A stretch of 64,000 nt of DNA from Methanobrevibacter sp. (GTDB lineage: Archaea > Methanobacteriota > Methanobacteria > Methanobacteriales > Methanobacteriaceae): contig NZ_JAFYHP010000031.1 in assembly GCF_017539065.1 (NCBI RefSeq), positions 62,001-126,000 of the forward strand, given 5' to 3'. Made by a program: the position numbers and the translations under genes. The notes beneath the pieces are model-generated. The model did no database searches and was not told where the DNA came from. It saw nothing but the letters and a program-made list of their open reading frames with translations. Positions 34,512 through 50,777 of this stretch are shown here, in pieces. Position 1 is the first letter of the stretch, and each line of letters opens with the position of its first letter.

Positions 34512-34573
34512 AATATCAGCTAAACCCCTAGTTAATGTTTATATTTTAATCGTAACTTTATATAAATCAAACG

Positions 34574-34594
34574 AGAGAGCATTTGATAAGTATT
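34574..34594 (-). promoter_or_regulatory. 21-bp repair-gene element, copy upstream of the MrfA-type helicase
   Basis: Core AGAGAGCATTTGATAAG on the plus strand; read towards the helicase it is the reverse complement ending in ATGCTCTCT. It ends 7 bases before TTTATATAA, a TATA-like box, and about 62 bp before the ATG at 34511. It matches the copy at 34762-34782 in 19 of 21 positions. Confidence 0.6.
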
Positions 34595-34761
34595 CGAAAA
34601 ATTTAAATTCCTTAAAAATAGTAAGTTAGAAACAAAATTGCTTCTAACTTATGCATATTATGGAAGTGTTTACTCCCATGATTTTCAATCTATTTTTTTG
34701 ATTAAATAAAAGTTTTCATAGCTCAAATATTTGTGATATTACATCAAAAAAAGTTAATTAA

Positions 34762-34782
34762 AATAGTTTTCAAATGCTCTCT
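34762..34782 (+). promoter_or_regulatory. 21-bp repair-gene element, copy upstream of uvrD
   Basis: Plus-strand text TTTTCAAATGCTCTCT, the same orientation towards its gene as the other copies. It lies 6 bases before the TATA-like box TTATAAATA (34789-34797), 52 bp before the ATG. Confidence 0.6.
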
Positions 34783-34834
34783 AAATCATTATAAATAACT
34801 TTAATACATACATTTAATTAAGAGAGGTAACGTA

Positions 34835-37273: not shown

Positions 37274-37283
37274 GAGATTGAAC

Positions 37284-38516
37284 ATGAAATTACCTTCCCG
37301 ATCAAAATCATATATGATTCCTGAATACAGTCTAACAGGAGACTTATTGTCATTTTTAACATGCAACTTGCAATATAGATATCAGAATAAGGGAACATTG
37401 CCTCCTTCAAAACCTGTGCAAAGATGGTTTGGGGAATTTATTCATGGCGTACTGGAAGAGGCATATCTGGAATGGGATTTGAATAATAAACAGTTCCCAT
37501 GGGATTGGAAAACTGACATTAGGCCAATTGAAGATATGATTGATATACGATTGCAAGTGGATGGGCTTTATCCCTATGATGAAGATTTATTTTACAGTTT
37601 ATTAAACAGCGATTTAACAGCTGATGAATTAAATGAACATGACCATAAAAAATTGGCTAGTGCAAGAGCTGAAAAGGCCATAAATATATGGGGGCCTCAC
37701 CTGTTTCCTTTAATTGATTCTACTGAAATTTTAATAAAAGGAATAAGAAACATGCCCAATTATGAAAAAAACGTCAGTAGGTCAAATTATTATGGAATAA
37801 ATGGAGTTGTAGATGTATTAAGTTCCATTAAAATCAATGATAACCTTAATCAAAGCAATTTGGATAACTACAATAATAAAATAATTGAATTTCTAAAAAA
37901 AGATCCTGAATTTCGAAAACGCATTGCTAATTATAGTGACGGAGACGAATATGAAATTATCATTGATTACAAAGGCATGAAAAGACCTCCTTTGAAAAGC
38001 ATTAATAAATTCAATAATCCTTGGGAGAACCATAGGCAACAAATTTTAACATATACTTGGCTTAGACGCCAACAGGAGGATTCAAAACCAATTTTTGCTG
38101 GAATAATATTCTATTTAAATGAACTTGTACCTTCAAAAGAGGATTTGCTCCTAATTCAAGAGGAAATCGCTAATGACCTAACCGATGATGCTATTGATTA
38201 TAGCAAATTCGCCAATGATATTGAGTTGATAATGAATTGGAGCGAAGATGACAAGGCACCGGAACTTAGTGAAGAGTTTAAAATAGCCAGATCAATTAGA
38301 ATAATTAACATTGATAAAGAAGAGATCAATGATTCACTGGATAGATTTGACAGCGTTGTTTTCAATATTGAAAGTTCATTAATCAAAGAAATTAAAGGCT
38401 GTAAGATTCAGGAGGCATGGAAAGCAGAATCAGATGAGAGAACCTGTAGTGCTTGCGATTTTAAGACATTCTGTAAAAATAACAGTGTTAAAAACAAAGA
38501 TATAAAAATTCCTTAA
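37284..38516 (+). CDS. PD-(D/E)XK nuclease with Fe-S cysteines (AddB/Cas4-like)
   Basis: About 411 residues, RecB-family nuclease. Conserved pieces are FGEFIHGVLEEAY (motif His), GINGVVDVLSS, EIIIDYKGMK (the D-x-K catalytic motif) and QILTYTWLRRQ (Q-x-x-x-Y type). Four cysteines for a 4Fe-4S cluster are in place, one near the N-terminus (FLTCNLQYRY) and three at the end (CSACDFKTFC). It would trim DNA ends with the UvrD partner. ATG at 37284 is 7 bases after GGAG; TTG at 37278 is rejected. The start lies 10 bp after the helicase stop. Confidence 0.85.
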   Translation: MKLPSRSKSYMIPEYSLTGDLLSFLTCNLQYRYQNKGTLPPSKPVQRWFGEFIHGVLEEAYLEWDLNNKQFPWDWKTDIRPIEDMIDIRLQVDGLYPYDEDLFYSLLNSDLTADELNEHDHKKLASARAEKAINIWGPHLFPLIDSTEILIKGIRNMPNYEKNVSRSNYYGINGVVDVLSSIKINDNLNQSNLDNYNNKIIEFLKKDPEFRKRIANYSDGDEYEIIIDYKGMKRPPLKSINKFNNPWENHRQQILTYTWLRRQQEDSKPIFAGIIFYLNELVPSKEDLLLIQEEIANDLTDDAIDYSKFANDIELIMNWSEDDKAPELSEEFKIARSIRIINIDKEEINDSLDRFDSVVFNIESSLIKEIKGCKIQEAWKAESDERTCSACDFKTFCKNNSVKNKDIKIP

Positions 38517-46902: not shown

Positions 46903-47003
46903 TATATTACCTTCTTTTAATTTGTGTATATAACCAATTTAAACACTTTAACAAGTATTTAATGTGTAATAATTTAATCTAATTAATATTTAATATTTTG
47001 CTA

Positions 47004-47024
47004 AGAGAGCATTTGAAAAGTAAT
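47004..47024 (-). promoter_or_regulatory. 21-bp repair-gene element, copy upstream of mre11
   Basis: Plus-strand text AGAGAGCATTTGAAAAG; only one position differs from the consensus of the two copies at 34.6 kb. Same orientation relative to the gene (minus-strand reading ends in ATGCTCTCT). About 8 bases downstream is TATTAAATATT, a TATA-like stretch; the ATG of mre11 is 101 bp away. Confidence 0.6.
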
Positions 47025-47099: not shown

Positions 47100-50000
47100 T
47101 TAATATCTCTCAACTTGACAAATCAGTCCACTGAATTCGCATTTATCACAGCTTACAGAATGTTTTGAGTAGTTATCTTCAGAAATATTTTTCACTACAC
47201 TTTCTAAAAACTCCAATATAAATTCATTTTTGACATATTCTTTTTCATAGAGTTTTCCTTCATCCAAAACATATAATATCAAATTTTCAACTTTTACATC
47301 TTCCATTTCGCTTAATGCCCTTGCATAATAACTTAAAAGTTCCATGTAAAATGAATGATAGTTTTTCATCTCATCCCTTGTACGGATAAAGTGAACAAGA
47401 CTCACTCCTTCACCCTCAGAAATTATCAGATCAATGACCCCATTAATATCATAGCCTTTTACATCCAAACTAACCGGATAGGCAGTTTCAACCACATCAA
47501 AATTTTTGCCATAAACCTGCCAGTAATCAGCGAAATTATTAAATAAATCTTTTAAACTCTTTTCACCTGATGAAAATGAATATGATTTAATGACTTCCGA
47601 AACCAGATTTTCTATACTCTCTTTATCCCAATCAGTCATAAATTTATCATTGTGAAGACGATTAACAATTATCCTAAGTTTAGAATCAACAAATTTATTA
47701 ATATTTTTTGGGTTTTTGAATTTTAAATTAGATTCCAAATTGTATCTTAAAGGACAGAACAAATAATCGCTTAAAATGCTTTCAAAGTCTATCTGGTTAA
47801 ATAAATTAGAATCACGAATCAAATGGGAAGTTACCTTTTTCATTTTAAATACGTCAGATGGCTCTATTCTAACCAAATCGTTTTCAAAGTCCTGCAGTAC
47901 TTTTGGAGTTCTGCTGCCTGTGCGAGGCAATACTGTAGATAATATCAATAATTCTTCAGCACGGGTATTTGCAACATAAACCACCCTTTCCTCTTCTCGG
48001 TTAAATTCTAATGGTTCCTTTTCTTCTGAAATTTTATATTTTAAGAATTCATTGGGAGTCGGATAAACAGGATAATTATTGTAAATATGTGATTTACGTT
48101 GGGCTGAAAAGGTGAGCGGAAAACTTCGATCTTTAATGGATGCAGTTATCACAACAGGATACTCCAGGCCTTTTGCTTTGTGAACTGTCATAATATGGAC
48201 CTTTTGTGAGTTGTCTTCCTCTTCATTAATTGGACATGAGTAATATTTAAGTGAACGATACAGATAATTGAATAAACCGATTAAATCATATTTTCCCATG
48301 ATATTTTCATAATCGGAAATTATCTCGGAAATCAATGCTAAATTAAGCGCCGCTTTTTTAGCTTCAAAATCAGACCTAGAAAGTAATTCATCAGCATATC
48401 CTGTGATTTTTATTAATTCATAAAATACTTCAAGGGAAGTTAATCTTACATCGCTTAAAGATGATTTTAAATCATTTAATCCCTCAAATAAGTCTAAATC
48501 ATGCTCATCAGTAATTCCAATACTTCTAAATTCATCGCGTGAATATGTACTTAAATCTATAACTCCTACTTTTCTAAAGATTTTATCTAATGTCTCATCA
48601 GAGTAATCGCGGACAACATCCATAATTGAAGTTGATTTGGAATCGGAATCCATCGCTTCAAATTTATTTTTAATTCTTAAAACATTTGAATGGTACTTCA
48701 GCTCGATTTCATTTAATATTTCTTGGGTTTTATTAGATAGCTTAAATACTTTTGATGCATCATAATATTTATCTGTGAAAGAGGATAAGTTAATCCATTG
48801 ACCCCCATCCCCATAATAAGCTATTCTAGTTGGATCAAAAGGCAGCATATACCATAACAGGGTCAGAACAGCTTTCACTTCATCCTGATATATTAAATCA
48901 TCGATTCCCTTAAGATAATATGGGATTTCCTGTTTTTCAAATTCTTCAAGAATGTCTTTTTTATCTTTATGGCTTCTAAACAATACGCAAATATCACTAT
49001 ATTTGGAAATTTTACCTGAACTTTTAAGGTTTTTAATAATATATGCAATTCCTCGATACTCATCTTCAGGACGTGAATTTTCAAGCATGTAAACCGGCAT
49101 TTTAGATTCGTTAGTAGTTTTCAAATCCTTTTGATTTACACGTTTTTCACGGATGAACTCCTCATTGAACTTGACAATGTCCGATGTTGAGCGATAATTA
49201 TTTATAAGGATCTTATTTTCAAATTCGTCATTATTTGAATAATCATTGAAAAATTTCGGGTTTGCTGCTCTGAATGAGTATATGCTCTGGTCAGCATCAC
49301 CAACAACCGTGAATGTATCTGCTATGCTTCTCATGTGTTCGAAAATTTGCATTTGGATTGCATCGGTATCCTGAAACTCATCAATCAAAACATTTCGGTA
49401 TTTTACTTGTTTCAAGTTGTTTTCATCTGACAATATTTCAAGGGCTTTAACTAAAAGGTAATTCTGGTCACAGACATGTTCGCTTTCCATTAATTCAATC
49501 CAATCTTCATATGATTTTGCAATCTGCAAATATCTTGCTTTATAAACATCACATTGAAATTTGTGTTGTTTGATGTCTTTTTTGGTCGGATATTGGGTTT
49601 TCGGATGATTTTGGTAAAATTCATCAATGAATGATAGATATTCATCTGACGGAGTGTATTTTGATTCGATATAATCGATTAAACCTTCACAGTCAACTTC
49701 AAATAATGCAAACTCATCATATTTTTTTAAAACTTGACCTGACTCATAATTCCTTAAAAATGCGGGACCCGTAAATCCTAAGTCTTTTCTGTGTTTGTTA
49801 AAAAACAGATTTCTTTCAGATTCTCTTTTAAGTAAATTATATGGAATATCACAAAAATCAGAAAGAATAGACCTGCAAAAACTGTGAATTGTACTTATTC
49901 TCATTTGATTAATAATATTTAAATCTAATTTTGTGTCTTTTTTAAATCTTTCACGTAATTCATCGGCAGCTTTATTTGTAAATGTGATTACAAGTATTGA

Positions 50001-50777
50001 TTCGGGGCTTGCTCCATTTTCTATCAGATATAATACCCTTTCAATTATTACCCTTGTTTTACCTGCGCCGGGACCTGCGTTTATAACCAGGGGTTTGCCT
50101 ATAAACTCGACAGCTTGTTTTTGATGTTCATCCAGATTTACGTCAGGAGGAATTTCACGTACCGTGCACCTATCAGCTTTTTTAAATGCTTGGAAGTTTA
50201 AAGGCCTTGACAATGGATTTCCTTCACTATCAAATAAATCTAGGGTCAGAACTTGCTCTTTAATGAATTTATTTAAATTTTCTTCAATTAAAGTTAAAGC
50301 CCTGATCTTATCAGCTGAATCTAGCTCTTCAATGGATATCAAATCTTCGCCTTCCAAATCAATTAATGACGGCTTTATTGAGTTAACTTCAAGGTTATCT
50401 AAAATCAGGTATATGTCCTCATTAGTGATTTTCGGATTGTGTCCCAAAAATGAGAAATCAAATTCATAGTCAACTTGTAAAAACTCCTCAAATCCTACAA
50501 AATAATCCTCATAGATATATTTGAACAATGTTTTATGAACACTTTCAAGGTCTCTTTGTTTTAACATTAATGTCGGGTCATTAAAAACATCGATTGTGAA
50601 GACCAATTCCTTTTTGGTTTGGTGGCAAAATAAATCCAAGATAACTTTTGCGGTAGCCATGGCTAGGTCATATTTCTTCAATACAATAAATTTTTCCATG
50701 ACTTCACATAAGTCATATAAATTCTTAAATTTACTTTTAAGAAAAGTAAAAACACTACTCTCTCTCATTATAATCAT
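47100..50777 (-). CDS. Large UvrD-type helicase fused to a degenerate Fe-S nuclease domain
   Basis: 1225 residues. The N-terminal 210 are an extra helical domain of unknown type. Helicase core: Walker A INAGPGAGKTRVI, ITFTNKAADEL, VLIDEFQDTD, VVGDADQSIYSFRA, INNYRSTSDI, MTVHKAKGLEYPVV, YVANTRAEE. The C-terminal 218 residues keep the four Fe-S cysteines (FCPLRYN near 1008; CDKCEFSGLIC at 1210-1220) and GVIDL, but the D-x-K catalytic site reads VHFIRT (about 1128-1133). Nuclease activity is therefore doubtful. Start could also be ATG at 50768. It overlaps the gene upstream by 23 bp. Confidence 0.88.
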   Translation of the reverse strand: MIIMRESSVFTFLKSKFKNLYDLCEVMEKFIVLKKYDLAMATAKVILDLFCHQTKKELVFTIDVFNDPTLMLKQRDLESVHKTLFKYIYEDYFVGFEEFLQVDYEFDFSFLGHNPKITNEDIYLILDNLEVNSIKPSLIDLEGEDLISIEELDSADKIRALTLIEENLNKFIKEQVLTLDLFDSEGNPLSRPLNFQAFKKADRCTVREIPPDVNLDEHQKQAVEFIGKPLVINAGPGAGKTRVIIERVLYLIENGASPESILVITFTNKAADELRERFKKDTKLDLNIINQMRISTIHSFCRSILSDFCDIPYNLLKRESERNLFFNKHRKDLGFTGPAFLRNYESGQVLKKYDEFALFEVDCEGLIDYIESKYTPSDEYLSFIDEFYQNHPKTQYPTKKDIKQHKFQCDVYKARYLQIAKSYEDWIELMESEHVCDQNYLLVKALEILSDENNLKQVKYRNVLIDEFQDTDAIQMQIFEHMRSIADTFTVVGDADQSIYSFRAANPKFFNDYSNNDEFENKILINNYRSTSDIVKFNEEFIREKRVNQKDLKTTNESKMPVYMLENSRPEDEYRGIAYIIKNLKSSGKISKYSDICVLFRSHKDKKDILEEFEKQEIPYYLKGIDDLIYQDEVKAVLTLLWYMLPFDPTRIAYYGDGGQWINLSSFTDKYYDASKVFKLSNKTQEILNEIELKYHSNVLRIKNKFEAMDSDSKSTSIMDVVRDYSDETLDKIFRKVGVIDLSTYSRDEFRSIGITDEHDLDLFEGLNDLKSSLSDVRLTSLEVFYELIKITGYADELLSRSDFEAKKAALNLALISEIISDYENIMGKYDLIGLFNYLYRSLKYYSCPINEEEDNSQKVHIMTVHKAKGLEYPVVITASIKDRSFPLTFSAQRKSHIYNNYPVYPTPNEFLKYKISEEKEPLEFNREEERVVYVANTRAEELLILSTVLPRTGSRTPKVLQDFENDLVRIEPSDVFKMKKVTSHLIRDSNLFNQIDFESILSDYLFCPLRYNLESNLKFKNPKNINKFVDSKLRIIVNRLHNDKFMTDWDKESIENLVSEVIKSYSFSSGEKSLKDLFNNFADYWQVYGKNFDVVETAYPVSLDVKGYDINGVIDLIISEGEGVSLVHFIRTRDEMKNYHSFYMELLSYYARALSEMEDVKVENLILYVLDEGKLYEKEYVKNEFILEFLESVVKNISEDNYSKHSVSCDKCEFSGLICQVERY

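Follow-up and report, generated by a model that had tools for sequence, protein, structure and literature searches.

A directional promoter element shared by DNA-repair genes of Methanobrevibacter and a candidate damage regulon in Methanobacteriales

The window analysed here is a stretch of 64,000 nucleotides of a Methanobrevibacter genome, about 93% of which is coding according to our gene picks; the genes and sites concerned are collected in Table 1. A gap of 323 bp (34512-34834) separates the divergent ORFs of a MrfA/Hrq1-type helicase and a UvrD-family helicase. The uvrD ORF is followed after 4 nt by an ORF for a PD-(D/E)XK nuclease, and the two, as far as can be judged from sequence, probably form one operon. 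For Mre11, encoded together with Rad50 elsewhere in the window, orthologues were found in 30 of 31 genomes of the genus. The MrfA-type helicase carries a C-terminal TPR extension (residues about 876-947). A second gene combining UvrD and PD-(D/E)XK parts, a fusion of 1225 aa (47100-50777), lies directly upstream of the mre11 site, and no element copy of its own was seen.

Table 1. Genes, element copies and TATA-like boxes at the sites in the window
Feature	Position	Strand	Basis
MrfA/Hrq1-type DEAD helicase, 951 aa	31656..34511	-	Pfam DEAD, Helicase_C, MZB, WHD_HRQ1, TPR
TATA box TTTATATA, 8 nt after copy 1	34559..34566	-	sequence; spacing rule from 64 promoters
Element copy 1, towards MrfA-type helicase, ATACTTATCAAATGCTCTCT	34574..34594	-	exact consensus match
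Element copy 2, towards uvrD, ATAGTTTTCAAATGCTCTCT (feature list: AATAGTTTTCAAATGCTCTCT)	34762..34782	+	window match
TATA box TATAAATA, 8 nt after copy 2	34790..34797	+	sequence; spacing rule from 64 promoters
UvrD-family helicase, 812 aa	34835..37273	+	Pfam UvrD-helicase
PD-(D/E)XK nuclease ORF directly 3' of uvrD	37278..38516	+	Pfam PDDEXK_1
Rad50, 915 aa	42938..45685	-	Pfam SMC_N, Rad50_zn_hook
Mre11, 404 aa	45688..46902	-	Pfam Metallophos
Weak TATA-like stretch ATATTAAATA, 8 nt after copy 3	46987..46996	-	sequence
Element copy 3, towards mre11-rad50, TTACTTTTCAAATGCTCTCT (feature list: ATTACTTTTCAAATGCTCTCT)	47004..47024	-	window match

The first-pass annotation of this DNA had described two inverted copies of one element in the gap between the mrfA and uvrD genes and a third copy before mre11-rad50, each directed at its own gene and placed just before a TATA-like box. 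We could confirm the coordinates and strands of all three copies; any two of the three 21-mers are identical at 19 of 21 positions (consensus in gene direction, ATTACTTWTCAAATGCTCTC), and the box follows after 8 nt, that at mre11 being poorer than those in the MrfA/UvrD gap. At the mre11 TATA-like position, ATTAAATAT is also present in relatives. When the 18-mer TACTTWTCAAATGCTCTC was compared with the window, the three sites differed from it at 0, 0 and 1 positions and the next best match at 4, while no match to the 23-mer occurred in 100 dinucleotide shuffles of the 64-kb window. The three-copy observation is real and far from chance.

The anatomy of the element was derived from 64 promoters in three genomes of the genus. 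The element is about 20 bp long, directional and asymmetric (non-palindromic), with the consensus ATTACTTTTCAAATGCTCTC, and an A located two bases 5' of the searched pattern, a position that played no part in selecting the sites, is 92% conserved. On its 3' side lies a T/A block, in which the best TTTATATA-like octamer starts 8 nt on in 21 of the 64 promoters and 7-10 nt on in 37. With about 8 nt between its end and the TATA box, the element abuts the BRE, for which the spacer is barely long enough, and the centre-to-centre distance between element and TATA box is about two helical turns. LexA and DdrO are repressors released upon damage, and a factor acting in that manner here would block TFB/TBP until freed by damage; since the site abuts the BRE, a bound protein could also block TFB. 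We regard such a repressor as unlikely without dismissing it, for the single asymmetric site is placed upstream of the BRE/TATA rather than over the TATA box or the start, and this geometry matches the damage element of Sulfolobus, which is needed for promoter activity (PMC5817253). That the factor activates and does not repress is an inference drawn from the position of the site.

Throughout the 1.84-Mb genome, the 18-mer with up to 3 mismatches found 28 sites, 14 of them exact, against 4 for the reversed pattern, and nearly all are intergenic, 50-250 nt before a start codon and in one orientation. We read the target genes from the sequence stretches around the matches and assigned them with Pfam and NCBIfam. 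Genes downstream of the sites encode the MrfA-type helicase, UvrD with PD-(D/E)XK, Mre11-Rad50, Hef, Hjc and UvrA; further targets are TopoVI-B, RFC-S, Hel308, MutS2-like, DinG/XPD-like, RPA, NurA and NrdD genes, and others are a YdjM-family protein, PfkB, DUF763, Zn-ribbon proteins, TPR proteins, a 59-aa membrane protein and unknowns. Longer stretches revealed the target operons RPA-RadA (L450), RFC-S/L and NurA-HerA, in which RadA, RFC-L and HerA were named from reading the sequences, with no family search behind the names. Repair or DNA-metabolism genes follow 14 of 26 sites, an enrichment beyond chance by many orders of magnitude on the assumption that such genes make up about 5% of all genes. 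The proposed regulon comprises about 25 targets, mostly DNA-repair genes, and about ten lie outside repair (for example PfkB, Zn-ribbon, RhuM-like and TnpB). The genome-wide check proposed in the first-pass annotation, that sites should cluster in promoters of repair genes, was passed, with one orientation and one TATA distance.

We scanned relatives with a 17-mer, allowing up to 2 mismatches, together with a control pattern. Among 36 genus relatives, 34 had 6-47 matches (0-4 for the control), and no counts above the control were obtained in archaea outside the order; a scan of 150 genomes of the order located the element in most genera of the family and in family f3, and weakly in family f2. 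Promoters from G028, G010, G011 and G033 (M. smithii PS, judged from its provirus) serve orthologous targets, not every gene in every genome: RPA, TopoVI-B, Hef, Hjc, UvrD, UvrA, MutS2-like, DinG-like, DUF763, NrdD, PfkB, YdjM, a SocA-like protein, and proteins of 111 aa, 59 aa and 115 aa (the last an unknown). The expectation that the element is kept before orthologous genes stood for UvrD, whose site is well conserved with an orthologous site in all four of these genomes, and for RPA (in f3 as well), TopoVI-B, Hef, UvrA, Hjc and others; it was met in part for Mre11, with a site at the same position (-115 to -123) in 13 of 28 genus relatives, and failed for MrfA, whose site is kept in none of the five relatives with a readable MrfA promoter. 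In genus g17 the standard element is rare; TopoVI-B, a small membrane protein gene and truncated cdc6 genes are preceded there by a drifted form, TTACTTATCAAGACCCC, which often occurs as tandem copies 22-24 bp apart. Bacterial contigs and viral contigs from other hosts yielded many exact 16-mer matches that fall within genes or have no TATA context and appear chance-like.

These comparisons also bear on the view that the copies are chance repeats or belong to a mobile repeat spread over the genome, to which the presence of the site at transposon-like TnpB genes might seem to point. Only about 20 bp are common to the copies and their flanks differ, while the targets are orthologous across genera and the TATA distance is fixed; placement before orthologous genes rules this view out, and we consider it hardly conceivable.

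A shared repair or damage regulon in Methanobacteriales, for which expression and binding data are lacking, is in our judgement likely, and the first-pass annotation, which had offered it as an inference, is supported by the targets, orientation, TATA spacing and orthologues; damage as the inducing signal is itself inferred from the gene list. The presence of RFC, RPA, NrdD and, in some species, MCM among the targets makes a role in replication or the cell cycle possible: the regulon would then provide a timed supply of RPA, RFC, NrdD, TopoVI and, in those species, MCM. RFC-S/L, RPA, NrdD and TopoVI-B are indeed linked to replication, some species have the site before MCM-like genes (L061, L249, L056), and the possible reader discussed below is related to an initiator. 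We think this role improbable, however, as UvrA, Hef, Hjc, MutS2-like, NurA-HerA, Mre11-Rad50, DinG-like and Hel308 are repair genes, as integrases, TnpB and a SocA-like antitoxin are better explained by a stress signal, and as PCNA, polymerase, primase and ligase were not seen among the target promoters read.

In ten viral contigs (among which L281/L348 and L315/L352 are close pairs), an integrase-like ORF begins 46-74 nt after the element; most of these ORFs are integrases by Pfam or PHROGs, and the aligned set has the R...HxxR...Y residues common to tyrosine recombinases. In M. smithii PS, the element ACTTATCAAATGCACTC is located 59 nt before the start codon of the integrase of provirus MSTV1, a human-gut archaeal virus (L258:2063-2121, L577), within the viral genome at its left end. 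Chromosomal integrases (L200, L212, L216, L229) and TnpB genes (L040, L044, L051) also carry it, the latter in their promoters. Through this site, proviruses may link their integrase to damage of the host, and the regulon predicts a possible inducer of the M. smithii provirus. Lambdoid phages tap the damage response of their bacterial hosts, and our observations suggest that archaeal viruses tap the host response likewise. As a separate observation, TnpB or transposase-like genes with the element or its drifted form are found at L040, L044, L051, L488 and L501.

The most widely conserved target is a small membrane protein gene, and in f2 and f3 the element precedes this gene, of 56-64 aa, beside cdc6-2. 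The two genes are convergent in families f1 and f3 and adjacent in f2, which makes cdc6-2 a neighbour of this target in three families. The membrane protein gene lies between archease and cdc6-2 at L444:5437-5700, L463, L465, L466 and L468. The protein is possibly a damage-induced division inhibitor, which is a guess.

Cdc6-2 is the second Orc1/Cdc6 paralogue, about 26-30% identical to Cdc6-1. Extra Cdc6-2-like genes occur in g17, g18, g19, g20 and g22 (L533-L546); their products of 234-284 aa (about 275) stop short of the winged-helix region. The element or a close variant is present in each of the 14 promoters read for these truncated paralogues, from five genera. No element was seen upstream of full-length cdc6-2. 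The truncated proteins are possible dominant-negative or feedback factors. In addition, the element is similar to the ORB repeats at the origin of this genome, TTACACTTGAAATnnnnCTCT, when the spacer is taken as 3 bases shorter: RTTACnnTTnAAAT and the CTCT end are common to both, whereas two inner bases differ, and the ORBs sit at the origin by cdc6-1 and the element in promoters. At L540 and L541, an origin box, TTACACTTGAA, was observed directly before the element, about 120-150 nt before a truncated cdc6.

Because of its location beside the conserved target, the promoters of its truncated copies and the likeness to the origin box, Cdc6-2 is our best candidate for the reader of the element, and by analogy with Orc1-2 of Sulfolobales we would give it an even chance; there are no binding data. 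The protein was found in 28 of 30 tested genomes, including genomes in which the standard motif is rare, and since it is nearly universal, its presence alone is no proof, and presence or absence proved uninformative as a discriminator. It was not seen in G036 and G009, both of which carry the motif; the neighbouring rtcB is missing too, and an assembly gap is therefore suggested. In g17, the conserved winged-helix columns F318, K349 and R352 of Cdc6-2 are changed, but switches in 3 of 26 conserved winged-helix columns against 5 of 100 in the AAA part are not significant by count, and Cdc6-1 of g17 has 2 of 57 columns changed, both hydrophobic; these numbers are too small for proof. Identities among same-genus Cdc6-2 proteins were left out of this comparison, because one row may represent a wrong ORF.

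The same regulon and the same damage logic could be served by another, unidentified transcription factor, the link to Cdc6 being a matter of neighbourhood and chance. Motif-rich and motif-poor genomes cannot be told apart by whether they have Cdc6-2, and no direct evidence of its binding exists; this keeps another factor a serious possibility, somewhat short of even. Against it stand the truncated Cdc6-2 paralogues, with the element in all 14 promoters read, and the position of cdc6-2 beside the most widely conserved target. The WYL-type damage regulators cannot supply such a factor, as no WYL-domain protein was found in 150 genomes of the order. PafBC and DriD, the bacterial damage regulators of that type, have an asymmetric site upstream of the promoter core, as is the case here.

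Returning to Cdc6-2 as the reader, the closest known system is that of Sulfolobales, where Orc1-2 acts in the damage response via a non-palindromic motif directly upstream of the BRE/TATA (PMC5817253, PMC6934391, PMC10470591). Common to both are an asymmetric motif just 5' of the BRE/TATA (here with the peak at 8 nt), repair genes in the target set, a second Orc1/Cdc6 protein, a cdc6 gene as target (here the truncated paralogues) and a reader of the Orc1/Cdc6 family, demonstrated there and only proposed here. The lineages are different, and the Sulfolobales motif, A(N)TTTC (PMC5817253), shares only TTTC with our consensus; it has 6 bp and 214 genes, whereas the Methanobacteriales element is about 20 bp long and highly specific, with 28 sites, and the targets there are ups/ced DNA-transfer genes, in contrast to NER, HR and RPA genes and provirus integrases here. 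These likenesses suggest that two distant archaeal lineages employ a relative of the initiator to regulate their damage response.

The bacterial SOS system (LexA/RecA) is comparable in that UvrA, UvrD, DinG-like, a recombinase operon (RadA), integrases and a small membrane protein are placed under one site; ydjM is a LexA target in E. coli, and a YdjM-family gene is a target here. The SOS operator, however, is palindromic and overlaps the promoter, whereas our element is asymmetric and upstream of an archaeal TATA/BRE promoter. Our literature search, limited to open-access papers, turned up neither this element nor any repair regulon of methanogens that has a defined site, and the exact text of the motif gave no match in papers.

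In the mechanism that we propose, the element would be the putative site of one sequence-specific regulator of the repair regulon, which would bind upstream of the BRE/TATA after DNA damage and help TFB/TBP to load, resulting in activation of about 25 transcription units; by the analogy mentioned above, the regulator would be Cdc6-2. The full picture, an SOS-like response of Methanobacteriales in which Cdc6-2 binds a descendant of the origin box and truncated Cdc6 copies exert feedback, with a conserved damage-induced small membrane protein and proviruses such as MSTV1 wired in through their integrase promoters, is put forward only tentatively. For the genus of the dominant human-gut archaeon, the analysis provides a list of about 25 targets together with a precisely defined site and a candidate regulator.

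Two further targets were noted. A 111-aa protein without a Pfam match is a conserved and regular target (L001, L077, L106, L131, L148); an AlphaFold2 model from 4 sequences had a mean pLDDT of 41.5 and was not used. Near its gene, a SocA/Panacea-type antitoxin-like gene is likewise a conserved target (L449:3794-4294, L106:4515-5012).
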